Both the position numbers and the translations under genes were made by a program. Source: Periplaneta americana (Eukaryota > Arthropoda > Insecta > Blattodea > Blattidae). From it: DNA of 64,000 nucleotides. How positions within the stretch are numbered: the stretch's first letter is position 1; each line of letters starts with the position of its first letter. The notes beneath the pieces were generated by a model. That model saw only the letters and a list, made by a program, of their open reading frames with translations. It searched no databases and was not told where the DNA came from. Location: assembly GCF_040183065.1 (NCBI RefSeq), contig NC_091119.1:67148892-67212891 (forward strand), given 5' to 3'. Shown here one piece after another: positions 160 to 51,546 of the stretch.

Positions 160-843
160 CTAAATATAGTAATTAAATAAATAAATAATGAATATATTTG
201 CCGTCTTAGCTTATCAAGATGCTAAGTGATTATTTATTCACATAATTAGCATAACATGTAGAACAAATTGGTAAACGTTTTCGGCAATAATTTGCCATCT
301 TCAGATTGTTAAGAAATGATATTAACTAAGTATGAACACTTTACAAAGTTGATATACAAATAGATAATTAAATTTATAAATAATAGCGCTAATTGATAAG
401 AAATTTAAAATATGACTAAAAATTAAAATAAATGTGTAGAAACACCATAAGTATTGTATATTATTTATTTTCAATAAATGTTTATCGTTTCGATAGCCAC
501 CACATCTTGTCGCAGAATATTTTTTTTTAAATTCATTATGTATTTTTTTAACATTAATTTACATTTTCTTTTTTGTTCATTTGAATTGATTAGGATGCCG
601 ATATTTTAAATCCAAGATTTGGACGGCTATCATTTCGATATTACACTGTAATATTATTTTTTGTTTCTTGTGATAAAGATATATTCTTCCTGAAGGAAGG
701 ACGTTGCATGTTGTGCGGTTCAACCTGGCCTTGTAATTGCAAGTATTCAAACGAGAATCAAATAAGGGATTGCTCTTGTATTTAATTTTAATTAGTGATT
801 ATTTATATGTATGAAGTTTTATTTAATTCTGATATATTCGAAA
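160..843. repeat. Left inverted arm of a Penelope-like element (pseudo-LTR)
   Basis: This block is repeated in inverted orientation at 2386-2492, 4737-5028 and 6074-6240, pieces that are contiguous once two later insertions in the right arm are removed. Matching stretches include the 'cttcctgaaggaaggacgtt' segment near 690-710 (inverted at 4770-4792) and the region near 290-360 (inverted at 4981-5028 and 6074-6100). Penelope-like elements are known to carry terminal repeats in direct or inverted arrangement, and a Penelope-type coding remnant lies between the arms, so I infer a pseudo-LTR. The outer edge near 160 is approximate because similarity fades into AT-rich sequence. Confidence 0.65.
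492..631. mobile_element. Small MITE-like insertion in the left arm
   Basis: A block of about 185 bases (roughly 462-645) is present in the left arm but missing from the matching place in the right arm (near 4836). Within it GATAGCCaccacATCTTG is matched in inverted orientation by CAAGATttggacGGCTATC at the other end. No open frame. Target repeats are unclear, so the superfamily is not assigned. Confidence 0.5.
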
Positions 844-1779: not shown

Positions 1780-2384
1780 ATTTTACAGTCTGTACAAAAG
1801 AAACCAAATTACCTAGAAATGTACAAAAACTTGCCCAGACATGTTCAAACATTTTTAACAAGAGCCAGAACAGGTCACAGTGTCACACAATTGTACCTCC
1901 ACCGATTTCACCTTTCTGATAATCCTACTTGTCTGTGGTGTAATAATCATGATGAAGATCTGGAACACATTCTTCTATACTGTCCATCCATAAACCGCAA
2001 AAGAAGTAAATTAAAATCCTCAGTACCAGTTGCAGAAGACACAGCCTTGCAGTATATACTGACTACACCCCAACTCTGGCTACTAGCAATAGGCATCTAT
2101 AATGAACACTGATCAAAATACCCCTCTTTTCTCGTGAAAAACAACAACTGAATAGACTACAGTGGACTATAGTGGTCTTTATGTTGTCAGCAAACAGCTG
2201 GATACATTAAGAAGATTGAAGATTGGGCTCTAACGTTACAGAAATACCGCTGCCTCTGTATGGAAGCGCGCCCAAAAGTTGTTGATTTTATTTGAAATTT
2301 TACCAAAATATGTCATGCTATGCCATTTTTTATTGTTCTTTGGGTTTGTATCTGGCGTTAGTGTAGTTAATTTCTTAGTTAGTT
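1780..2384 (+). pseudogene. 3' end of a Jockey/I-type LINE
   Basis: The frame at 1819-2112 reads YLHRFHLSDNPTCLWC followed by EDLEHILLYCPSI. This is the Cys/His-rich C-terminus found downstream of the RNase H region in Jockey, R1 and related non-LTR retrotransposons. The stop is followed by about 270 bases that look like a 3' untranslated region before the right arm of the Penelope-like element starts. The 5' part is missing, consistent with the usual 5' truncation of LINE copies. The exact clade cannot be set from this short tail. Confidence 0.6.
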
Positions 2385-2385
2385 T

Positions 2386-2492
2386 CGAATATATCAAAAT
2401 TAAATAAAACTTCATACATATAAATAATCAGTAATTGAAGTTAAATACAATAGCAATCCCTTATTTGATTCTGGTTTGAATACTTGCAGTTA
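2386..2492. repeat. Right inverted arm of the Penelope-like element, inner piece
   Basis: Inverted match to about 735-843. The arm stops at the TA where the DD82E transposon begins and resumes at 4737. Confidence 0.65.
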
Positions 2493-4736
2493 TAGTAGGA
2501 TTTTTCAAAGGATCCCCAGTCGGTCTCATTTGTTGCTAGAAGAACTTAGCCGCACGGTCCACCCCGGTCATTAAGGGACGCGTGCGGAAATTTCTAGGCG
2601 CGCAGTTGTCACGTTTTACATTGACTTCGCCACGTGGTGGGTATGAAACAATCGTATATTTATTTCTATACAAAAAAAGTAAATTCATTCAATCAATCGC
2701 GAATTAATGAATGGATAATTTTGAGTTACTATGTGTACAAAGGTCCGTTATAGAACCATTGTATGGTCAACTTCTACAAACTAATATATTTTCATATTTA
2801 TATCAATAATAATAAAAAAATAACACCGAAAGAAGATAATCTGAATTTGTGTTTCGTGTCCAGATCCGCAGCGAAACTTAAGCGGTAGCTATACAGTATA
2901 ATAAAATATGATAGCATTTTGCTTCCCTTACCTCTATTCGTCGTCACTCTCTCCTAAGTGAATCACAAATCTTTCTTGATTACTGTCCCTGTCGTGCTTC
3001 ATGTAATTCTCTTCCGTTTTAATTACATGTTGAACACAGGCGAACCAATTGTGGGGACCGATTGTTGCAGCACCATCACGCAGAAGTTGACACACACTAG
3101 CACTCAGAGTCGGGGTAATATTGTTTTTCCTAACATACGACTTTAGCTGGGCCCAGATCATTTCCAAAGGATTTAGAATACAGTGGTATGGAGGAAGTCG
3201 TAACACTTTGTGTCCATATGAGGCTGCGAGCTCCTCCACTGTATATTTTTTACTAACATTGGCTGATTTGATTTCCTGCAACATAACTGCTTTGATGGGT
3301 ATGGGGTTAGGAACGGTAATATTATTATGCCTCATGAAGTTAATTATGTCTTTAACATTGCTGTTCATAGTAGGAAATCGAATTAGTTGCCGTGAATGAT
3401 AACTTGCATTGTCCATCACAATTATACATTTTCGATTTCGTGGCAGGTTTTCTAAAAGATGGTTTTTGAACCAGTTCTCGAAAACTTGAGCTGTCATTTC
3501 ATCATGGCTATCAGCTTTGCAGTCCCCAATGTTTTTAGCCGACAAATAGACAAAATTATCCACCCACCCCTCACTGCCTCCCGCATGCAATACCATGATG
3601 CGCTTGCCTCGCGATGTTGGTGTCTTCAGGATGCAATTGCAGGTTCCATCATCCCACCCTTTCTTCACAACATCATGGGTATCGAACCACGTCTCGTCTA
3701 AATACACGATCCTGCAGCCCTCGGAACGCAACTTACGGAGACGTTCTATGAATCTGTAACGCCAGGCGACTATCCGTGCAGATTCCATTACAGTTTGCTT
3801 CTTCTTCAAAGTGCGAAAACAAAACCCGAGTTTTATTAGAAGCTGTCGCAGTGTACATTTTTCATAAGGAAAATCACACACGTTCTGTAAGTGCTTCAGT
3901 AGTTCTGCAACAGTTGGTGGCTGGCCTTTATGAAAAAACTTATACATCTCACGCCTTATCAAGTCACAGCAGAAATCATCAATTTTACTAAATTTAACCT
4001 TCTTGTTGCCAGGTTTTTTCGGCGTCACAGGACCCCTTTGCACGATTTTCCTAACAGTTTTTCTATCCAGTTTCATTATTTTAGCTGTCTCTGAAATATG
4101 ACCGTTTCCTATATTATTACTGGTAACATACTCATACGCGTTACACACCAGTTTCTGGCTTTGTTTGTTCAAAGTTTTAGTCACCTTCCTTTTATTCGCG
4201 TAACCACTGGTGCATGATTGCATATCACTTGCGGACACTGGACTGCTAGTACTCGGTCGACAATCACTTGAGGACACTGAACCACTGGTGCTCGGTCGAC
4301 AATCACTTGTGGACACTGAATCACTGGTGCTCGGTCGAGGATCACTTTCGGGTACTGAAGCATTTAACTTGGGACTTCCTGGTACGTGAACTTCCACGTT
4401 TAATTCCCAAGGCCTCCATATGATTAAAATGAAGTTTTAAAAATACTAGGTAATTTACACTCTACTCCGCAAAATAATTGTAATAATAATTACAGAAGAC
4501 TTTCAAACAGCGAACCAAAACACGTGTGAATTGTTTGAACATGTAAGAAAGACTGCATGTTGGTGTCTCAGGGGAGAATTGGCAACATTTATGTTTGTCT
4601 CAGAAAGCGGAAACAGAGCTTACCCCATCCCTCTAGTGGACAGAAAAGGTTGGGGGACTGTCTTACTTCAAAAGGCAACCGCTCAGCATGCGGTAGCTTC
4701 TGTCTTTAGCTGGGGATGCAAAGAGTGGCTCTACTA
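2493..4736 (-). mobile_element. Apparently whole Tc1/mariner-group transposon, DD82E (Sailor-like)
   Basis: The ends are inverted repeats: TAGTAGG...GATCCCCAG at 2493-2519 against the inverted right end TAGTAGA...GCATCCCCAG. The outer six and inner eight bases are identical and 17 of 27 match overall. TA flanks both sides (2491-2492 and 4737-4738). The uninterrupted left arm of the host repeat shows the empty site (ccttgTAattgc), which confirms the boundaries and a TA target repeat. The element is 2244 bp and encloses one long open transposase frame. I see no internal break, so it may be complete; the moderate end similarity could mean mutation or could be normal for the family. Confidence 0.85.
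2934..4397 (-). CDS. DD82E transposase (IS630-Tc1-mariner group), open frame
   Basis: A 487-residue open frame starting at MEVHVPGSPK. Residues 20-60 are Ser/Thr/Asp-rich and contain about three 13-residue repeats (CRPSTSxSVSxSD type). Residues 80-122 and 165-200 look like paired helix-turn-helix DNA-binding domains (ETAKIMKLDRKTVRKIV; ELLKHLQ...TLRQLLIKLGF). The DDE_3 catalytic core follows: D234 in VYLDETWFD, D329 in IIVMDNASYHS and E412 in PPYHCILNPLEMIWAQLK. Exactly 82 residues lie between the second D and the E, far more than the 34-41 of usual Tc1/mariner enzymes. This matches a long-spacing lineage I recall as DD82E 'Sailor'. No intron is evident. It would cut and paste its own element at TA sites. 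The name is from memory; the catalytic triad is read directly. Confidence 0.85.
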   Translation of the reverse strand: MEVHVPGSPKLNASVPESDPRPSTSDSVSTSDCRPSTSGSVSSSDCRPSTSSPVSASDMQSCTSGYANKRKVTKTLNKQSQKLVCNAYEYVTSNNIGNGHISETAKIMKLDRKTVRKIVQRGPVTPKKPGNKKVKFSKIDDFCCDLIRREMYKFFHKGQPPTVAELLKHLQNVCDFPYEKCTLRQLLIKLGFCFRTLKKKQTVMESARIVAWRYRFIERLRKLRSEGCRIVYLDETWFDTHDVVKKGWDDGTCNCILKTPTSRGKRIMVLHAGGSEGWVDNFVYLSAKNIGDCKADSHDEMTAQVFENWFKNHLLENLPRNRKCIIVMDNASYHSRQLIRFPTMNSNVKDIINFMRHNNITVPNPIPIKAVMLQEIKSANVSKKYTVEELAASYGHKVLRLPPYHCILNPLEMIWAQLKSYVRKNNITPTLSASVCQLLRDGAATIGPHNWFACVQHVIKTEENYMKHDRDSNQERFVIHLGESDDE

Positions 4737-5028
4737 TACAAGGCCTGGTTGAACCACATAACATGCAACGTCCTTCCTTCAGGAAGAATTTGTCTTTACC
4801 AACAGTCACAAGAAACAAAAAACAATATTACGATAATAGTTAAAATACAATACTTATGGTGTTTCCACACATTAATTTCAATTTTTAGTCACATTATAAA
4901 TTTCACAGCAATTAGCACTATTATTATAAATTTAAGTATCTAGGGTATGTGACAATTGTTTTTACCCATGAAACTATTTGTATATAAACTTTGTAAAGTG
5001 TTCATACTTTGTTAATATCATATCTTAA

Positions 5029-5180
5029 CAGTGACGGCTCGTGATAAAATATTATGTGTGTTCACAATTTTGTGTTCCAAAATCGAAGAGAATTTGAAAT
5101 CGTACGTTTTTAGCCTAATATGAAATGTCATGATTCCAATGTTTCACTGTCGAAAAAACCGTATATAAATTCAAAACAAC

Positions 5181-5240
<60 letters not shown>

Positions 5241-6073
5241 AACCTAGTCTTTTTATTTCAAATTTTTCCTGGAAAGCCAGTTTACCCAGTTCTTTACTCT
5301 TCAAAATTACTTAAACAGAGTTCATTGTTTATGTTTGTTAAAAATTAATACATAAAACGATTTACAAAAGCGTGTGTTCAGTAATATATTTTGATTCACA
5401 ACACACAGATACACTATAGCCTATACCAGTACTGTAATCCCATTCGCATAGATTGATTACGGTACTATAAATACATGTCAGTAAATATTATTCTTAAATA
5501 ATATACACCATCATACAGATATTTAAATTCATACCACCATCACATTCAGCCAGCACGTCTTTGAAAGCCAAATTATGCTATATGCTGACACTGAAGTATA
5601 ATAATTCACAAACTACACTCTCGTAGCAGCACTGTACACATCCACATAAAGCAAACATTCCGACAGTGAGATGCTGACACCTGTAAGCTAAAATACACAC
5701 TTATTAAATTTTCTCCTCGACATATAGCATGTAAACGATAGGCATCGATGCACCTGACATCTGTAGGATAGATTCACTGTTCACTTAATGCTTTGTGCTC
5801 TTGACGAGTCATAAGCAGCCAGCGAAAGAAATTTTCTCCCGCGCATGCGTGAAATTTCTGTAACCTACTTGAAAAGAGCACGGCTTGTACGTGAACGGAT
5901 GTTGCCAAGTTTACATAAGAAGTTTATGCGAGATGCGGGAAGTTTAAAATACTCGATCCTGATATTATACATCCCCACTACGTCAATACAGTATTAAATA
6001 ATAAAACTAGTCGTGCATTAATGGAAACAAGGTGTTCACGTGCTCTTGTGCTCTTATTGACGCACCGCCACTG
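5029..6073. mobile_element. Non-autonomous hAT element, 1045 bp
   Basis: It starts CAGTGACGGCTCGTGA and ends in an inverted match (CAGTGGCGGTGCGTCAA read from the right). It is flanked by 8-bp repeats tatcttaa (5021-5028) and tttcttaa (6074-6081), 7 of 8 identical. Eight-base target repeats and CAGTGGCGG-type ends are hAT features. The matching place in the left arm of the surrounding repeat lacks it. No transposase frame is visible; the interior holds an (AAT)n tract. Confidence 0.8.
5182..5238. repeat. (AAT)n microsatellite
   Basis: About 19 tandem AAT units inside the hAT element; the poly-isoleucine frame here is an artefact. Confidence 0.95.
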
Positions 6074-6240
6074 TTTCTTAACGATTCTGAAGATGGCAAA
6101 TTATTATTGCTGGGAACGTTCATCAATTTAAATTGTACTACGTGTTATGCTAATTAATGTGACTAAATAATCACTTAGCATCTTGATAAGCTATCTAAGA
6201 TGGCAAATACATTAATTATTTATTTAATTTCAAATAGGTA

Positions 6241-11009: not shown

Positions 11010-12444
11010 ACAGATGGAAAATTTGTCAGAGTGTGTTCAGAAATCGTTGCTGAGTCAATTGAACTGATAATCTTTGATTGAGAGCAAACACTCTTTACAA
11101 AATTCGTTGCAATTAACACCAACATCTCAGAACCAACTGGGGCAAATAACCAACCCAGCAGTAAAGAAACAACTTCCCATAAGTCTCCAAAATGGAAAAT
11201 ATTGAACGGAAGTTGTCCCCAATATTCCGATTCTCCTGACAAAGTTTCTCTTTCAATGAAAGAATCCATAAAGAATAGTCTGCAAGAGAAATCTATCCCT
11301 GACATATTTATTTCTATATCTAACAACATTTTTGACAAATAGGCTATTAGAACATTCACAAGTATGTAGTCAACAGAAAAATGACCATTCATTTTCACTC
11401 GCAAAAGAAGAGCTTATGAAGTTCGTCGGTATTCTTCTTTTTAGTGGGTACCACACACTACCAAGGGAGCTCATGTACTGGGATCATTCTCCAGATTTCA
11501 GCGTGGAAATTGCTGCTGACTGCATGTCATGTAATAGATTCCAAGACATAAGAAAGAACCATTTCAATGACAACAGCAGCATTGACAAAGAAGACAGATA
11601 TTACAAAGTGAGGCGACTATATGATTTAGCTAATGAATCTCTGAAGAAATATGGGGTTATTTTGTTATAAATTATCAATTGACGAAAGGATGGTGAAATA
11701 TTATGGCAGGCACACACTGAAGTTATATATATGAGGGAAAATCCAGTAACATTTGGGTATAAACTCTGGATGCTATATAGTTATGATGGTTATCCTTTAC
11801 AGATTTTGCCATACCAGGGAGAAAAGGACAACGATCATGAACATTGTCATTTAGAGTTGCAAAATCGCTTGCATCCATAATTGAAAACTCTAAACAGCTT
11901 GTTATTTATATGGATAACTTCTTCACATCCTACAAACTTGCCGTCATGATGAAGGAAAAAGGTTTCTTTATGACAGGAACTGTTCAGGAAAATCGCATTG
12001 AAAAGTGTCCACTCAAACCATCTTCCGAAATGAAGAAAAGGGAAGAGGAGCTATCGACAAATGTTTGGATACAAATAATAATATTGGATTAATTCGCTGG
12101 AATGATAACAAAGTTGTAGCAGTTGTCACCAGTTTTGAATCCTCGATCCTAAAGGAGAAGTGCAACGAAGGACAAAAGGTTCAAGAACTAACATCGCAAT
12201 CCCACATTGCATTAGTTCCTACAATAAATACAAGAATGGAGTTGACCTCTTCGATAACCTAATGGCTGTATACCAAATCCGGATTCGAGGCAAGAAGTGG
12301 TACTTCCCTCTATTCACAAATATCTTGGACACCATGGAAGCTCTATACTACTGCTGAGCTGGGTACACATGACCCACTTATGTTTCGAAGAGAGTAAGTA
12401 ATCAACATATTTGATGATATTAGTAACCATATGACATCCAATGC

Positions 12445-24454: not shown

Positions 24455-26176
24455 GATACTTGATAATGTTCGAGACAATATCGTTTCCAACCTGAAGAGA
24501 GTGGATCTTGTCACGAGGAAAGACATACATAATATCAGAAGTTCTTTCAACATTGAATTAGGGATGGATGTCGCCACCACAATGATGCAACAAGTGTTGA
24601 ACTTTGGGTGAATGAGTGTAAGACGAATGAAAAAAAACCAGTGTTATTTTACAAAAAGCAAGGTGTAGATATGGAGGGAAGTGATTTAAATGCAGAATAT
24701 TTTTGCACTATTTTAATGAATTCTGCACAGTCTGAAATGCTAAAAAAGTTTGGGGGGAACATTGTATGTGTTGACAGTACACATGGTCTCAACTCATACG
24801 ATTTTGAAATGACCACAGTATTAGTTATAGATGAATTTTATGGAGGATTTCCTTTTGCAACAATGTTTAGTAACAGGAAAGATACACATATCCATGAGAT
24901 CTTTTTTGGAAAAATTAAGGAACGTACTGGGCAAATAGAAGCTAATGTGTTTATGACAGATATCACAAACATATTCTACAGTGCATGGGTTAGTACAATG
25001 GGAGCTGTGCCACATCAACTTTATTGCTCATGGCATGTTGATCGAGCATGGCAGCAAAATTTAAATGAGGTAAATGATTCTGAAAAAAGGAAGTGGATTT
25101 ACAAAACCTTGAAGTATTTACAAGTTACTTTAGAAAAAAATGAATTCAAGCTTGGTTTTGACAATTTCTTACAATCACTATATGAAGACGAGAACACTAA
25201 AAGCATGGCAGAATACCTCAGAATGCATTATTATATCAATACTGAAAAATGGGCATATTGTTTTCGAAAACTCTACAAAATCAACACCAACATGCATCTT
25301 GAGAATATGCATAAGATAATTATGTAAATATGTATACTTTGAGGGGAAAAAAATAAGATTAGATAAAGCTCTTCATGTTTTACAAAAATTCATGAGAGAC
25401 AAAGTGGTTGATCAAATTATTAAACTCACCAAAGGGAAAATAAGTGTACATCACAGTGCAATACAAATAAGACACAAGAGTGCATTGTCACTTGATTATG
25501 AAATTGAAAAAACTGATAATGATGACTACATCCTAAGTGTCCTGACGAAGATTTTGTTGTATCAAAAAGAATGACCACTTCATGCTGCAAATTAAAATGT
25601 GAATGCTGTCATATCTGTGTGCATACATATGAGTGCTCATGTATAGATTTCAATTTAAAAGCTACAATATGCAAGCACATACACTATGTATCCATGAAAA
25701 TGAAAGAAGAAAATCCATCACAATCACCACAGGATGAAATACATGCTGATGAAGTGAATAATCTCATAAAACAGGTATCAACGTCAAGAACACATGAAGT
25801 TATAATAAAAGAAATTGAACAATCCTTGAACGTTATTAGAAGTAATTTACAGAGAAGAGTTCATAGTAAGGATGAACTGAATTTAATTCTAAATAATGTG
25901 AAAACTGCTGCATCAATAACTGGATTGTCTAAATCACATGTTCCATTGAAGGAATGTGCAGAAAATTCAGAAGAACCAGCCAATAAGAAGGTTGAAAAGC
26001 AGTTCTTCTTTTCAACTAAAGTAAAGAAAGGGAAGAAGAAGGAGAAAATGAAGAAGCCAAGCAAGGAAGACATCACTGTTATTAAAGAATCTTTAACTGA
26101 CACTGTACATGTTTCCACAAATGCCTCTAATGATCACAATTATACTAATCATCAGATAACTTTCCCACATCACTAG
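24455..26176 (+). pseudogene. MULE-like gene exon 4: transposase core and SWIM finger
   Basis: Acceptor TTTGCAG before 24455. It opens ILDNVRDNIVSNLKRVDLVT, then reads through about three single-base frame changes (near 24566, 25320 and 25535). 24608-25327 encodes the MULE core: NIVCVDSTHGLNSYDFEMTT with the first catalytic Asp, FMTDITNIFYSAW with the second, and HQLYCSWHVDRAWQQNL. 25392-25570 continues, then 25571-26176 holds the SWIM zinc finger YECSCIDFNLKATICKHIHY and a Lys-rich tail. Without the shifts this would be a normal-length MULE C-terminus. The frame changes are why I call it decayed; sequence error is the alternative. Confidence 0.8.
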
Positions 26177-42186: not shown

Positions 42187-43123
42187 TTAAACAAAAGCAA
42201 GACTCTTTGTTTCTACTTTACAGCGCACTGGTTTTTCATCTGAGTGACAACGCATATGTTTTGTTAAGTCATAACTCTGAACACATCTCCAACCACATTC
42301 AGTACACAGATAATGTTTTCCTCCCATGTGGGCCCTCAAATGGTTAATGAGGGTACTACGACGTCCAAAATTGTTGCTGCACACAGTACAATGGTAGGGT
42401 TTTTCGCCTGTGTGACCCCGCATGTGTTTAGTGAGCGTATCACCACGACTGAAGCTCCTCCCACACACAGTACATAGATACGGTTTTTCTAGTGTGTGTA
42501 TCCTCATGTGCTTTCTCAAACAGCTACCAAAACCGAACGACTCCCCACACACAGAACAACAATATGGTTTTTCACCAGTATGAGTCCGTAAGTGGCCTTG
42601 AAGCTGATGCTTTAATGTGAAAATTTTCCCACAATCATGACAAAGGAATCGCTTCCTGTCCACTTCTGGTTTAGGCTGTGTCTGTAACTCCTCTACTCTG
42701 ACTTTACTCGAAAAGTCTTTCGAAATGTCTTTCGAAACGTCCTTTATGCAGTTGTCTTCCTGTAAACAAGTTTCATTAGAAGCCTTAGCTTTTTTTAAAT
42801 CTTTATTTTCAGGTAGCCATCTCTTAGTAGAATTCTTTGCAGAGTTAACTTTGTGGGCTGTACAGAATTTCCCTTCTGTCGTTTTTGAGATTCTTTTACA
42901 TCTGAATTCGAATCATGTTTCTGCATCCTTGTAACATTTCTACTATATTTTCTTCCAGAAAATTGCATGTCAGTTTTCATTTTAAATTTTCCCACCACAG
43001 GAACATGGATCCTCTTCTTTGTGCCAGTGTTTCCATTTGAGTTCGTTCCAGCTGGAAGACTGGACCAAAGACCTTCGGTGCTTTTCAAAAAGTCATCTTC
43101 TTCAGGTAATCTGTCACAGAGAA
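42187..43123 (-). CDS. Five-finger C2H2 zinc-finger protein, terminal exon
   Basis: The exon starts after a plausible acceptor (TTCTCTGTGACAG, near 43124 on the minus strand). 42795-43120 encodes [20 protein letters not shown] and a basic, low-complexity linker. A second frame then continues through [20 protein letters not shown] to the fingers at 42187-42663: [10 protein letters not shown]...[15 protein letters not shown]...[15 protein letters not shown]...[15 protein letters not shown]...HLRAH and [10 protein letters not shown]...HMRCH, joined by TGEKPY-type linkers. All five have complete Cys2His2 ligands. The two frames overlap near 42870-42900, so one frameshift, a sequencing error or a hidden splice lies there. 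It likely encodes a nuclear DNA-binding regulator; upstream exons are outside or unrecognised. It is the only clear host-type gene in the window. Confidence 0.75.
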
Positions 43124-43604: not shown

Positions 43605-44746
43605 ACTTACTTACTTACTGGCTTTTAAGGAACCCGGAGGTTCATTGCCGCCCTCACATAAGCCCGCCATTGGTCCCTATCCTGAGCAAGATTAATCCAG
43701 TCTCTACCATCATATCCCACCTCCCTCAAATCCATTTTAATATTATCTTCCCACCTATGTCTCGGCCTCCCCAAAGGTCTTTTTCCCTCCGGCCTCCCAA
43801 CTAACACTCTATATGCATTTCTAGATTCACTCATACGTGCTACATGTCCTGCCCATCTCAAACATCTGGATTTTATGTTCCTAATTATGTCAGGTGAAGA
43901 ATACAATGCGTGCAGCTCTGCGTTGTGTAACTTTCTCCATTCTCCTGTAACTTCATCCCTCTTAGCCCCAAATATTTTCCTAAGGTCGACCTGGTTGGCG
44001 AGTTGGTATAGCGCTGGCCTTCTATGCCCAAGGTTGCGGGTTCGATCCCGGGCCAGGTCGATGGCATTTAAGTGTGCTTAAATGCGACAGGCTCATGTCA
44101 GTAGATTTACTGGCATGTAAAAGAACTCCTGCGGGACAAAATTCCGGCACATCCGGCAACGCTGATATAACCTCTGCAGTTGCGAGCGTCGTTAAATAAA
44201 ACATAACATTTAACATAACATATTTTCCTAAGAACCTTATTCTCAAACACCCTTAATCTCTGTTCCTCTCTCAAAGTGAGAGTCCAAGTTTCACAACCAT
44301 ACAGAACAACCGGTAATATAACTGTTTTATAAATTCTAACTTTCAGATTTTTTGACAGAAGACTAGATGACAAAAGCTTCTCAACAGAATAATAACACGC
44401 ATTTCCCATATTTATTCCGCGTTTAATTTCCTCCCGAGTGCCATTTATATTTGTTACTGTTGCTCCAAGATATTTGAATTTTTCCACCTCTTCGAAAGAT
44501 AAATCTCCAATTTTTATAGTTCCATTTCGTACAATATTCTGGTCACGAGACATAATCATATACTTAGTCTTTTCGGGATTTACTTCCAAACCTATCGCTT
44601 TACTTGCCTCAACTAGAATTTCCGCGTTTTCCCTAATCATTTGTGGATTTTCTCCTAGGATATTCACGTCATCCGTGTAGACAAGAAGCTGATGTAACCC
44701 ATTCAACTCCAAACCCTGTCTATTATCCTGAACTTTCCTAATGGTC

Positions 44747-44748
<2 letters not shown>
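43605..44748 (-). pseudogene. LINE reverse transcriptase 3' half, interrupted by a SINE
   Basis: The minus-strand frame at 44233-44748 begins in the RT palm: HQLLVYTDDVNILGEN, with YTDD in place of the common YADD. It continues KYMIMSRDQNIVRNGTIKIG, FKYLGATVTNINGTREEI and PVVLYGCETWTLTLREEQRL. After the SINE at 43985-44219 it resumes at 43625-43984 with GRPEGKRPLGRPRHRWEDNI, RDWINLAQDRDQW and RAYVRAAMNLRVP. The 3' tail is (TAAG)n (43606-43620). The copy starts abruptly at an (AAT)n run, consistent with 5' truncation. Other pieces of the same family are at 30095, 60470 and 62100. Clade uncertain (RTE-, CR1- or Vingi-like). Confidence 0.85.
43985..44219 (+). mobile_element. tRNA-derived SINE inserted in the LINE
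   Basis: Flanked by perfect 13-bp target repeats atattttcctaag (43972-43984 and 44220-44232). The head at 43988-44059 folds as a tRNA: acceptor GACCTGG with CCAGGTC, D-arm around GGCGAGTTGG, anticodon arm GGCCTTCTATGCC (loop CTTCTAT, anticodon UCU as for Arg), and T-arm CGGGTTCGATCCCG. A 160-base body follows. Same family as 10574-10799, about 97% similar by eye. Confidence 0.92.

Positions 44749-44749
<1 letters not shown>

Positions 44750-44783
<34 letters not shown>
44750..44783. repeat. (AAT)n microsatellite
   Basis: About 11 units abutting the truncated 5' end of the LINE. Confidence 0.9.
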
Positions 44784-44784
<1 letters not shown>

Positions 44785-45336
44785 TGACTTACATTAACAT
44801 CTAAATACTTATTAATAAAATTTTATTAAGGTTTTTTCTAACATTTGACAACATACTTGTTCCTTTGTATCTTCTTTGGTTGTAGGTGCTGTAGGCATGA
44901 CTTTTTGTTTTATGTACCTCATAAAAAATAATCAAGTAAGCAGGCTGGCCATGTGACAGGTCCAGCACTTCCAATTTATATGTAATCTAACTTCTTATTT
45001 AACAGTTCATACATACATCTTGCAAAATGTGGTGAGGCATCATTCGCTTTTCACGTGACTTAGTTCATACGTCTCTTATTCTTTGTGGCTACAACATTTT
45101 GTTTAGGAGCATGTAATATTTAACTAACAACGATTGAGCCATATTACAACTAGGGGCTAGGCAATGTTGCTTAAGCACAAATGACTCCTGTTGTTCCAGG
45201 AGGTTAAAAAGCTGCGACCTCCATGAAAAGGGGTATAGTAACGCATTTCTGTTCTTACATTGAGAGATAAGAGTGGTTAACTTTATCATACCATTTAAAA
45301 TTCTAAAGTAAACCCCCTTGGGGGTGAAGGGGGGGC
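44784..45336. other. Repeat-like spacer left of the LTR element
   Basis: 45089-45340 has an open minus-strand frame without a domain I know. Part of it continues, across the LTR element, into 51551-51665 as one repeat. Confidence 0.4.
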
Positions 45337-45340
45337 ACAC

Positions 45341-46543
45341 TGTGCCGTTTTATTTCGGCACGTCTTTCTTTTCCTTTATATTTCTTTTACATTTTTCTAT
45401 CTTTATACTTTTCTCTGTTACTTTTAATTATTCTAACTCTTCATAGATGACTTGTAGTTTTTTCCTTTCTGATCTAGTTCTTCTTACTTCTCGTAGATGA
45501 CTTCTTTCCTCTCACCTTTCTGTTTTCCCGTAGTCTATGGTGTTCTTTCTTGTAATCTGTGATGAGTTGAAAATTAGGGCCTAGCCTATGGCTGGCGAGT
45601 GATTGGTTGATTCCCTGGGGAGAATTAGTATTTATTGCTGATTGGTTGATACCCTGGGGAGAATTTAGTATTTTTCATTACGTTATCCGATTGATTAAGA
45701 TAGAGACACCATTTGGTATTTCGCCTGTGAAGCGAGTTGTTCGGGCTAGTGGCATCAGTACGCTAGAGGGATGGCTTGGAGGTAGAATGTGTGTTGTGAA
45801 GGGCACGAGCTCCTATGTAGGCTGGGGATCGAACTGGGTTCGATAAGTCTACTAGTAGCTGCGTAGTCCAACGTGTTGCGGGATCCTGCGAGTGTATCGC
45901 AGGAGATATTCGTGTGGAGTTTAGCGGAGAGTTTTGTGATGTACTAATTATCTTGAACTGCATTCATTTTTCTGTCTGACTAGCGTGCAGTCAACTCTGG
46001 TTAAATACCGGTCGGTATTTTTATTTCAGGTTATTGTTCCTCTAGCTGTGATATAACTAAAAGTCTACCACAAACTACAAGGAGTTCAGTGAGATGGTTT
46101 TGGTTTACGTTTTACTTAGTTATTGCAGCAGAACGAATTTGACGAGTATGAAATTCACAATGAAGGCACCCATTGTGTGACGTTTGAGGGGTGGCCAATT
46201 TGAGTGTAACAGCTATGTGTGTGCTGAGTGTTGGTTACGTCAAGGTTGTATGACAAGATGGATGCCAGCGAGGGGGAGTACCTGCCTGTGTAAGGTAATT
46301 AGCTGGATTTGATTAACATTACTCTGTGAAGAAGATATTTTCTGTGCTACGAATTTATTTTGTTGTTTATTCTAAATAAATGGTTGTGTTTAACATAGGG
46401 AGTGTGTGTTATTACTTAACTACCTCGACACGTAGATTACCATCCTGATCATAACGTTTCATGGCAGGGTTATTTGGTATTATTAAGATATTTATCTTTT
46501 ATTTTATTAACAAAGAAGACCAACCAGACCCAGCGACGGTTCA
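45341..46543 (+). repeat. 5' LTR
   Basis: About 1.2 kb, TG...CA ends. Near-identical to the other LTR except for the tandem duplication noted there. Confidence 0.85.
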
Positions 46544-46559
46544 GTGTTAGCAGAGTTGC

Positions 46560-47900
46560 GTGTTTATGATCGGCGTTTGGAATCTCAAAGCCGAGGTACT
46601 TGGGATTGTGCTGTTTTGTTGTTTTTTGTGTTTCAAGATGGATGCTGGAATGGTGGAGTGGCGCGCCCTCCGTAAAGATGAGTTGCTATATGAGCTGAGA
46701 GCACGTGGTGCGGAGGTTGACTCGAACGCGGATGTCACCACTCTCCTAGCCAAAGCTAGGGAACCGGGGTTCGTTTCCCAGCAGACTCCGCGGAAATACC
46801 CCCAGTACTGTATCGCTAGTGAACTTTTCAAATGTGTAGAAATCGTGGAGTCCTTTTCGGAATTTCTGGAGGAGTTGAGGGTCGATTTTCAGAAGGATCG
46901 TTTTAGAAGAATATGGAACAGGGTGATTCACTGGGAATTACGACTGAAAGATATACTCGAGGTTAAGTTGGAAGTTGTAGATAGGGAAAAGTTCGAGAAG
47001 GAAATACAGAGATTGGGGATAGTGAAAATGGAACTAACGAATTTGAAAAAGAGTAGGAGCCAGGAGACCACGAGAGAGCAGAAACAGGGTTCAGGGGTGG
47101 CCAATGAAGCTCAAGTCCCTGTGAAAGTTTCCAATCTCGACAGGAAGAAGGACTACCTTAGCTTGATTTTTTCTAACATGCCTAATCCTTTTGAATCCGT
47201 TCTGAAGAAAGGGATGGTTTTCTCCGTTAGTAGTATACAGGCAGTCATGCATTTTCTAAGGGTGTTAGTGCAGTTTAAGGGTATATGTAGAGCTTTTCAT
47301 TTGGATGAGGCCTCTCTATTACATCTGATGTTCCCTTTTGCTAATGGAGTGTTAACTAACAGAGTATTGGCGGCCATTGAAGACGAAAAAACCTTGCTAG
47401 ATTTTCATAAGGGTATCCTGAACGAGTTCATTCCTGACAAGACTCGTCGTCTTCTGTTCGGCAAGTATTTCTACCGTAAACAAGGTGACAGTGAGACCCT
47501 ACTTGAATACGTGGAAGAGTTAAAAGTCATCGAAAAGGTTTTTGTAGCTGGCTTGACGGAAAGTCAGATAGTGGACGCTGCGTTGTCAGGGGCGTGCGAT
47601 CCCAAGGTCAGGGCTCAGTACATAAGTGCCAACCAGCTGCAGATCTTCCTTCAGCTCGACGAGTTATGTGTGCGGAATCAGGCGATACTAGATAGTGGTG
47701 CCCTGGCAGGAACCACCCCGACTAGATCCGTCGTTTTGGGACAGGGCAATAGGTGTTTTGTTTGTAACAAAGCAGGGCATTTTGCCCGTGAATGTAATCG
47801 ACGGGGTCACGTGGAGCAAAATCAGAGAAAGAGTGAAGAAGTTGTTCGGGTTGTGTCTCGTGAGATAAGTGCCCCCTCGCCGTCAGTGCCCCGTTGCTAG
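46560..47900 (+). pseudogene. gag-like region of the LTR element
   Basis: An open stretch of about 446 codons. It starts with a short SAP-like segment (RKDELLYELRARGAEV), has a mid-part like retroelement capsid, and ends with one CCHC zinc knuckle (CFVCNKAGHFARECNRRG). It would be the structural gene of a fossil retrotransposon. Confidence 0.75.
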
Positions 47901-47930
47901 GGCTCAGTTAGGTGGAGAGTTAGTGGAGGG

Positions 47931-48419
47931 TTGTTGGACACAGGCAGTGTCGTTTCTTTGGTTAGTTTAGAATTAGCGTGGAAGAAGGGATGGGAGATTA
48001 TCCCCGGGAACATGGTGTTGTTCTCTGCTACTTTCCAGTCTCTTTCGGTCAGTGGTCGTGTCAGTTTGAAAGTTAAGGTTGGACAGGTAGTTTGTGAATT
48101 TAGTTTCTGGGTTGTCGAAGGTTTGGTTAACCCCGCCATCTTTGGCGCTGATTTCATGGCGGAGACGGGGCTTATTATAGACATCCCACAGGAGGAATTT
48201 TATTTTAAACATGCTTTGGAGATCAAATTCCACTTTGCTAATCGATGTAAGGCACCTAAATTGCTTCCAGTTGGGGCATCGGTGGACCTTGTTGCTCATA
48301 GGGATGAAGGGGAAAGTCAGGAAGTAGATTCGAGTTCCTTGGGGAAAGATCAGGTCTGCGTTGGTCAGCCGGAACTGAGTGGTTCTCCGATTGTACATTG
48401 TACTTCCGGAGTTGAGTGA
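47931..48419 (+). pseudogene. Protease-like region of the LTR element
   Basis: Contains the aspartic protease motif LLDTGSVVSLVS and, further on, NPAIFGADFMAETGLIIDI, the flap-to-end pattern of retropepsins. No polymerase domain follows. Confidence 0.7.
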
Positions 48420-50184
48420 AGTTCCCTTGCCGTTTTCAGGAGTTATGAAGTCTCTACACTACGATCCAGATCTCGGAGTCAGTTTGGAACGTTTTCGGGA
48501 GGAACGGGATAGGATAACTTGCGAGTTGGGAAAAGATATAACTTGTTATACCGCTAAAAGTTACCGGGAACCGAAGCCAGGGGTTACCAGGGGATTTGTA
48601 GCCGCTGTGTCAGTTCCCCGTTTAAAGTTGGGTTTTGTGGCGCCCAAGAAGACTTTCTCCGCGCCCACGATTCTCTGCTTAAGGAAGTGCGGGGTGTGCA
48701 GCACCAACCACATGGTCAGGGGTTTTTCCCCATGAATGTAACACCTGTGTGGCGCTGGGTCAGAATACCGCCACTGCAGCCCATGCATGAAGTAAGAGTC
48801 TTCTAAAATGGGCACCTTTTCCCCCTAAGGGAATGTAAAAGGGGAAAAGGTTAGGTTAGGTTAAGTTATGTGAGTGTGGTCTGGTCAGTTTAGCCGTCCC
48901 AGGGTTTTGCATTGTGACGGACGGAGAAACGACACTGCAGACGGATTTTGGGAGTGACGTCAGAGAGGTTGCGTGAGTGAGGTCTGGTCAGTTTGGCCGT
49001 ACCAGGTTTTTCATTGTGACGGACAGCCAAACGACACTGCAGACGGAATTTTGTGTTCAGATCAGAACGGGTTCGGGTTTCTGATAACTCTGTTATTACA
49101 GAGCTGTATGCCTAAATGTCTCATTTGAGCATTTAGTGAGCTAAGGGTTGTTTTAATAGTAAGGTACAGTGCATCAAACGGTGGTATTTACTAAAACTAC
49201 CCAGTAAAAGTTTGTACTAGAGTGTATCATGAGTGGACGGTGTGATGAGTACTGTGTACTAACCTGGTTTTGTCACGAAGGAGTTTGTTACCTTTTATAT
49301 TCATGAACGGGCAGTGGGCACATATATGATTGTGCATATCATCAAGAGGAAGTGATAAAATGGCTGAAAAGACTATTATACCAGAAATGGTCATATGTGA
49401 AGCAAGTTATAGACATCACTTAAAAGTTTGTATTATTCACGTGTTTTCCTTCGTTTCAAGTTTATCTTATTCACTTTGACATTGTTGTCTTATTAAGTAT
49501 TTCTATGTTTTTGAGTTCTATATTGTTACGTGTGTTTTTAGTTCTAGGTTGGCTTTTATGTATCATCACAGCTCGAGCTAGTTATTTTGGGGGTCGTTTA
49601 TTCGCAAAATTTATCTTTTCCTTTTTCTCTTCTCTCTTTATATGTTTCATCTTCTTCTCTTTCGTGTCCTCTATCCTTTGTAGCTTACTTTCTTTCTAAT
49701 TTATTTTCTCTACTTGTTTCTCTTCTTCCTTTCTGTCACTTTAAGATGTTGCTGTTTATGTTTGGCTTTGTTGCATCGATCATGTTTGTGGTGGATATAT
49801 TTACTGATTGCGCCAAAGGTGGAAGTGTGCTGTGACTATAACCCAGAGGTCTGTGGATCGAAGGAATTTAGTTGGTTGGGGTGACTGCGATGGACTGCAG
49901 TCATTCCGAAGGGCCAAGTGGATCGCGGGGGAGAACGGTGGGGATACCGCCTCTACCCGTGGACACTCGGTGCCTAAATGATTTATGTTCGACCGTCTGG
50001 ATGGGTTGCAGCAGTGGCGTCAGTGCTGATTGTGCACTTGGAAGATACAGTACCTAGTGGCTTGTGATGGGACATAGCTGGGGATGAGTTCCCTTTTTGG
50101 TAGCCTACTTGTCCACACAGCGTCTTTGGACCTGGAGTTGGCGCTGTTCAGGAACTGCGCCAGTTTTGGGGGGGGGGGAGAGTC

Positions 50185-51546
50185 TGTGCTGTTTTATTTC
50201 GGCACGTCTTTCTTTTCCTTTCTATTTCTTTTACATTTTTCTATCTTTATACTTTTCTCTGTTAGTTTTAATTATTCTAACTCTTCATAGATGGCTTGTA
50301 GTTTTTTCCTTTCTGATCTAGTTCTTCTTACTTCTCGTAGATGGCTTCTTTCCTCTCACTTTTCTGTTTTCCCGTAGTCTATGGTGTTCTTTCTTGTAAT
50401 CTGTGATGAGTTGAAAACAAGGGCCTAGCCTATGGCTGGCGAGTGATTGGTTGATTCCCTGGGGAGAATTAGTATTTATTGCTGATTGGTTGATACCCTG
50501 GGGAGAATTTAGTATTTTTCATTACGTTATTCGATTGATTAAGATAGAGACGCCGTTTGGTATTTCGCCTGTGAAGCGAGTTGTTCGGGCTAGTGGCGTC
50601 AGTACGCTAGAGGGATGGCTTGGAGGTAGAACGTGTGTTGTGAAGGGCACGAGCTCCTATGTAGGCCGGGGATCGAACTGGGTTCGATAAGTCTACTAGT
50701 AGCTGCGTAGTCCAACGTGTTGTGGGAACCTGCAAGTGTATCGCAGAGGTTGCAGCAGTGACGTCAGTACGCTAGAGGGATGGCTTGGAGGTAGAACGTG
50801 TGTTGTGAAGGGCACGAGCTCCTATGTAGGCCGGGGATCGAACTGGGTTCGATAAGTCTACTAGTAGCTGCGTAGTCCAACATGTGGGATCCTGCGAGTG
50901 TATCGCAGAAGATATTCGTGTGGAGTTTAGCGGAGAGTTTTGTGATGTGCTAATTATCTTGAACTGCATTCATTTTTCTGTCTGACTAGCGTGCAGTCAA
51001 CTCTGGTTAAATACCGGTCGGTATTTTCATTTCAGGTTATTGTTCCTCTAGCTGTGATATAACTAAAAGTCTACCACAAACTACAAGGAGTTCAGTGAGA
51101 TGGTTTTGGTTTACGTTTTACTTAGTTATTGCAGCAGAACGAATTTGACGAGTATGAAATTCACAATGAAGGCACCCATTGTGTGACGTTTGAGGGGTGG
51201 CCAATTTGAGTGTAACAGCTATGTGTGTGCTGAGTGTTGGTTACGTCAAGGTTGTATGACAAGATGGATGCCAGCGAGGGGGAGTACCTGCCTATGTAAG
51301 GTAATTAGCTGGATTTGATTAACATTACTCTGTGAAGAAGATATTTTCTGTGCTACGAATTTATTTTGTTGTTTATTCTAAATAAATGGTTGTGTTTAAC
51401 ATAGGGAGTGTGTGTTATTACTTAACTACCTCGACACATAGATTACCATCCTAATCATAACGTTTCATGGTAGGATTATTTGGTATTATTAAGATATTTA
51501 TCTTTTATTTTAACAAAGAAGACCAACCAGACCCAGCGACGGTTCA
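50185..51546 (+). repeat. 3' LTR with an internal tandem duplication
   Basis: Same ends as the 5' LTR but about 160 bases longer, because a segment (about 50597-50757) is repeated in tandem at about 50758-50920. Confidence 0.85.

Follow-up and report, generated by a model that had tools for sequence, protein, structure and literature searches.

A very probable full-length Sailor (DD82E) transposon in Periplaneta americana, with a paralogous empty site that bears on its target duplication

Sailor elements are a known but little-studied kind of DNA transposon, described by Shi et al. 2021 (PMC8533490) and, as far as the literature naming DD82E was covered, only mentioned elsewhere; with so little description of the superfamily, every complete copy that keeps an open transposase is of use. 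According to the parts of the founding paper covered here (PMC8533490), the spacing between the second catalytic D and the catalytic E of Sailor ranges from DD78E to DD111E and is mostly DD82E, compared with DD34–41E/D in Tc1/mariner elements. The catalytic motifs are I/VVYLDET, VIIMDNA and HCELNPIEL, with inserts of 12–15 amino acids (aa) between the first and second D (D1–D2) and of 13 and 36 aa between the second D and the E (D2–E). Arthropod members measure 1,799–4,408 bp and encode 334–676 aa (Table 1 of PMC8533490), and the superfamily is placed closest to Tc1/mariner. Here we analysed a 64,000-nt stretch of Periplaneta americana contig NC_091119.1 (positions 67,148,892–67,212,891; hereafter the window), and its sequence makes us highly confident that positions 2493–4736 hold a full-length Sailor (DD82E) transposon of the IS630–Tc1–mariner group, a cut-and-paste mover. 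It is a new member, ordinary in kind. Its main parts are as follows.

2493–4736 (2,244 bp), transposase on the minus strand: very probable Sailor (DD82E) element in the arrangement TA-[element]-TA, recognized by its ends, triad and empty arm
2934–4223, minus strand: transposase as read from the first ATG in frame (429 aa and a stop codon), with D176, D271 and E354 in this numbering
4224–4436, minus strand: open frame upstream of the first ATG, containing most of a set of 39-bp (13-aa) tandem units
2493–2519, plus strand: left terminal inverted repeat, imperfect, TAGTAGG...ATCCCCAG
4710–4736, minus strand: right terminal inverted repeat, imperfect, TAGTAGA...ATCCCCAG on the minus strand

The open frame, the triad, the ends, the target repeat and the empty site can all be read directly from the DNA. 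On the translated frame we confirmed the triad D234, D329 and E412 (487-codon numbering), with 94 residues between the two aspartates and, as the original prediction had it, exactly 82 between the last two catalytic residues. The motifs around them, IVYLDET, IIVMDNA and HCILNPLEM, correspond to those of Sailor, the last two being slightly unlike the published forms. Alignment with 20 IS630 proteins revealed a 13-aa insert in D1–D2 and 48 extra aa in D2–E, the latter as one block that the alignment did not split in two. Both the element length and the 429-aa product fall inside the arthropod range of Sailor. The motifs, the two catalytic-domain insertions, the size and, in part, the ends fit Sailor. 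The identity, boundaries and completeness first proposed for the element are supported.

The minus-strand frame at 2934–4436 is open for 500 codons from stop to stop, whereas no open frame exceeded 182 codons when the bases of the element were shuffled 500 times; the transposase frame is indeed unbroken. The length of 487 codons given originally has to be revised, as it was counted from a GTG: the program that listed the open reading frames accepts bacterial starts, and GTG is not a normal start codon in eukaryotes. Translation from the first ATG in frame, at codon 59, would yield the 429-aa protein, which still includes the N-terminal helices and the catalytic domain seen in the structure model. 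The 39-bp tandem units lie in frame at 4202–4357, upstream of and partly across this ATG, and encode a Ser-rich 13-aa repeat; in the parts of PMC8533490 covered here, no such repeat was noticed for Sailor. Of the six ATGs at 4397–4740, not one opens the transposase frame, and translation of the upstream frame at 4224–4436 would require splicing or a start codon other than ATG.

On the plus strand the element starts TAGTAGG and finishes CTCTACTA, with TA flanking both sides. When the terminal 25 nt inside TATA were compared, 15 of the 25 positions matched, among them eight consecutive bases, ATCCCCAG, placed identically in both ends. Shuffling the bases of the element 20,000 times never produced both the 15 matches and the 8-base run, and random pairs of 25-mers from within the element gave 15 matches in 85 of 200,000 draws (overlapping draws were skipped and not counted apart). 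In view of these controls and the 15/25 match, the two ends, described earlier as matched, are related but imperfect. Terminal repeats of Sailor start with GT or CC and carry conserved motifs at positions 5–10 and 15–25 (PMC8533490, in the parts covered). As in Sailor, both flanks here read TATA, GT follows directly at both ends, and ATCCCCAG occupies positions 18–25 counted from the GT. Different from Sailor, the repeats are imperfect and positions 5–10 disagree between the ends.

The element sits in one arm of an older host inverted repeat, which keeps the empty site in its other arm. One arm spans approximately 175–843; the other is spread over 2383–6229, broken by the Sailor element and by a hAT-like insert. 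The relevant features are listed below.

2491–2492, no strand: target TA, left copy (2491–2494 read TATA)
4737–4738, no strand: target TA, right copy (4735–4738 read TATA)
734–843, minus strand: segment of the host repeat's other arm, with the empty site at its low end, near 734–740
5029–6073, approximately 1,045 bp: hAT-like insert with ends CAGTGACGG and CCGCCACTG

The filled site reads ...TTGCAGT-TA-{TAGTAGGATT...CTCTACTA}-TA-CAAGGCC..., and the empty arm reads ...TTGCAAT-TA-CAAGGCC... with a single TA (CAATTACAAGG). The alignment of the two arms crosses the junction, confirming that an empty site is visible in the other arm; 335 of its 361 columns are identical, 26 are mismatched, and there are seven other gap pieces, representing approximately four events by eye. 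If one TATA is kept, the filled arm is 2 bp longer than the empty arm, precisely at the junction. The single TA of the empty arm therefore supports the TA target repeat first proposed, although both flanks read TATA. It suggests that insertion most simply duplicated TA and that the second TA on each side is the element's own, a reading based on one paralogous empty site. Duplication of TA is preferred since it explains the 2-bp excess without further change, whereas duplication of TATA needs an extra indel.

This differs from the 4-bp TATA duplication reported for most elements in the founding paper, in which target duplications were screened manually and the covered main text does not contain the term 'empty site' (PMC8533490). 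If TA also forms the element's own termini, flanks alone cannot tell the two duplications apart. We lean modestly towards the view that Sailor duplicates TA like the remaining IS630–Tc1–mariner group, the reported TATA being the element's terminal TA counted as target. Somewhat doubtful, though still to be taken seriously, is the alternative that TATA was duplicated as published and that a 2-bp change unconnected with the insertion removed a TA from the empty arm or added one to the filled arm. The published TATA of most Sailor elements speaks for it, and indels are not rare between these arms, judging from the gap pieces noted above; yet a separate 2-bp indel would have had to fall on the junction itself. 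Furthermore, the same empty arm returns the expected repeat for the adjoining hAT-like insert, whose flanks are TATCTTAA and TTTCTTAA against an empty TTTCTTAA, an 8-bp target repeat with one mismatch. An 8-bp duplication is expected of hAT elements. If TA duplication held throughout Sailor, there would be no change of target specificity such as has been proposed for the superfamily, and the empty arm near 734–740 offers a cheap and direct test of a Sailor-defining feature. The TA versus TATA discrepancy may go beyond the literature covered here.

We then compared the transposase with related proteins. The predicted structure superposes on the catalytic domains of Mos1, SETMAR and Sleeping Beauty, and so the transposase appears to share the Tc1/mariner catalytic fold; it differs from these proteins in having 82 rather than 34–41 residues between D and E and other motifs around the catalytic residues. 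N-terminal helices are present in the model, and the D2–E insert is predicted to be helical with a confidence score (pLDDT) of approximately 60; folding from the single sequence gave no usable model (mean pLDDT 36.6). No Pfam family matched the insert above its cut-off as a known DNA-binding (SAP-like) domain, the best being DUF7376 with an E value of 0.01. When a viral structure library was searched with the model, the three best fold matches were giant-virus proteins (Tetraselmis virus 1, Bodo saltans virus and Sylvanvirus), two named transposases and one helicase.

Sequence searches recovered IS630 relatives, which resemble the window transposase in the catalytic domain and whose target is TA. 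Of 232 candidates from an alignment-based scan of viral contigs, 30 loci were confirmed, and tblastn against plasmids matched 27 records, all IS630-type among the 20 listed. The D–E spacing was 34 residues in 25 and 32 residues in one of the 26 loci parsed among 33 related loci (some of them near-copies; seven had no parse, the second parse of L029, 63 residues, was taken as false, and L002–L004 were left out before the count). Both insertions were absent from the 20 aligned proteins (L005, L006, L029, L016, L017 and L035 were left out before this alignment). No Sailor sequence was found in the viral and genome contigs searched. Scanning the viral contigs with the single transposase confirmed no relative, and tblastn against phages gave no match. 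An E-motif DNA pattern had no match in the viral contigs, and a DD78–88E DNA signature with Met before D2 had none in the genome contigs and matched the window once; zero matches in such exact-pattern scans do not demonstrate absence. Candidates from the pattern scans were rejected: a looser E-motif pattern found three stretches in viral contigs, one being an IS630 and two chance, and the E-motif pattern had a single match in the genome contigs, in a repetitive Asp-rich gene.

Several points weigh against the assignment to Sailor. The structure model leans on the IS630 alignment rows, with the D2–E insert at low confidence; every Pfam helix-turn-helix match in the transposase fell below its cut-off; and positions 5–10, the site of a Sailor terminal motif, are unlike between the two ends. 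The single-TA empty arm disagrees with the published TATA duplication. Membership was assigned from motifs and architecture, as the collections searched yielded no further Sailor sequence. Finally, in a tree of 18 IS630 proteins (L027 and L031 left out), Sleeping Beauty, Mos1 and the window protein, the last fell on the IS630 side, away from the other two, whereas Sailor was placed nearest Tc1/mariner in the published account. The fork had support of 91/89 and was not starred; the last three rows are long branches, and thus the tree shows solely that no starred clade includes the window protein. Its position on the IS630 side, together with the predicted Tc1/mariner catalytic fold and a match to the NCBIfam IS630 profile (78.7 bits, below the curated cut-off of 100), could suit an ordinary Tc1/mariner or IS630 element whose D–E spacing had been lengthened by a chance insertion. 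We consider this very improbable: the parsed relatives have 34 or 32 residues at that position, the motifs and the two insertions fit Sailor simultaneously, and the protein joins no starred clade.

As a member of Sailor, the element would be expected to move by the mechanism of its family. In keeping with the structure model, the N-terminal third of the protein would bind, through helix-turn-helix segments, the terminal repeats, which have the block ATCCCCAG in common. An RNase H-like domain carrying the D–D–E triad and metal ions would cut the element ends, which would then be joined into a TA target, with repair duplicating the TA. DNA binding and chemistry are proposed here from the family and the predicted structure.

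The insertion is later than the duplication that created the host-repeat arms, to judge from the sequence, and the open frame suggests that it happened fairly recently, although it gives no date. It is unlikely, but a fair number of observations would agree with it, that the element no longer moves and that its frame is open by chance, through youth alone or through host use of the gene. The window holds one copy, with no second copy of the 2,244-bp element detected within its 64 kb; the terminal repeats are imperfect; and the first 58 of the 487 codons contain no ATG, the six ATGs at 4397–4740 not opening the frame. Against this, the ends, target repeat and triad have been kept together, and host use would not need all of them. 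Short pieces of the element ends recurred in the window at chance level (two found with 2.11 expected, and five found with 3.22 expected), and the one match of a third such search was the element itself.

The window has the look of eukaryotic DNA with many remnants of transposable elements, and the following features lie outside the Sailor element.

45329–51546: long terminal repeat (LTR)-type element with direct repeats
11272–11667, 24557–25324, 44110–44793 and 1819–2109: Pfam fragments of piggyBac-type DDE_Tnp_1_7, MULE transposase, reverse transcriptase and zf-RVT

The statement that everything else coding in the window is decayed was too strong, as the LTR-type element has repeat segments that are 96–98% identical (45329–45902 versus 50171–50746, 96.4%; 45748–46543 versus 50757–51546, 97.6%) and an open 449-codon gag-like frame. 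This frame (46551–47897) contains a CCHC knuckle scoring 20.9 bits against a Pfam cut-off of 20.8. It is followed by an in-frame TAG and then by a frame with LLDTGS (47901–48416), which matched aspartyl protease models below cut-off. Nine further frames at 48379–50054 had no Pfam match at an E value of 0.1, and no reverse transcriptase was seen among them. On the minus strand, 42190–42912 is a 241-codon open frame with several C2H2 zinc fingers.
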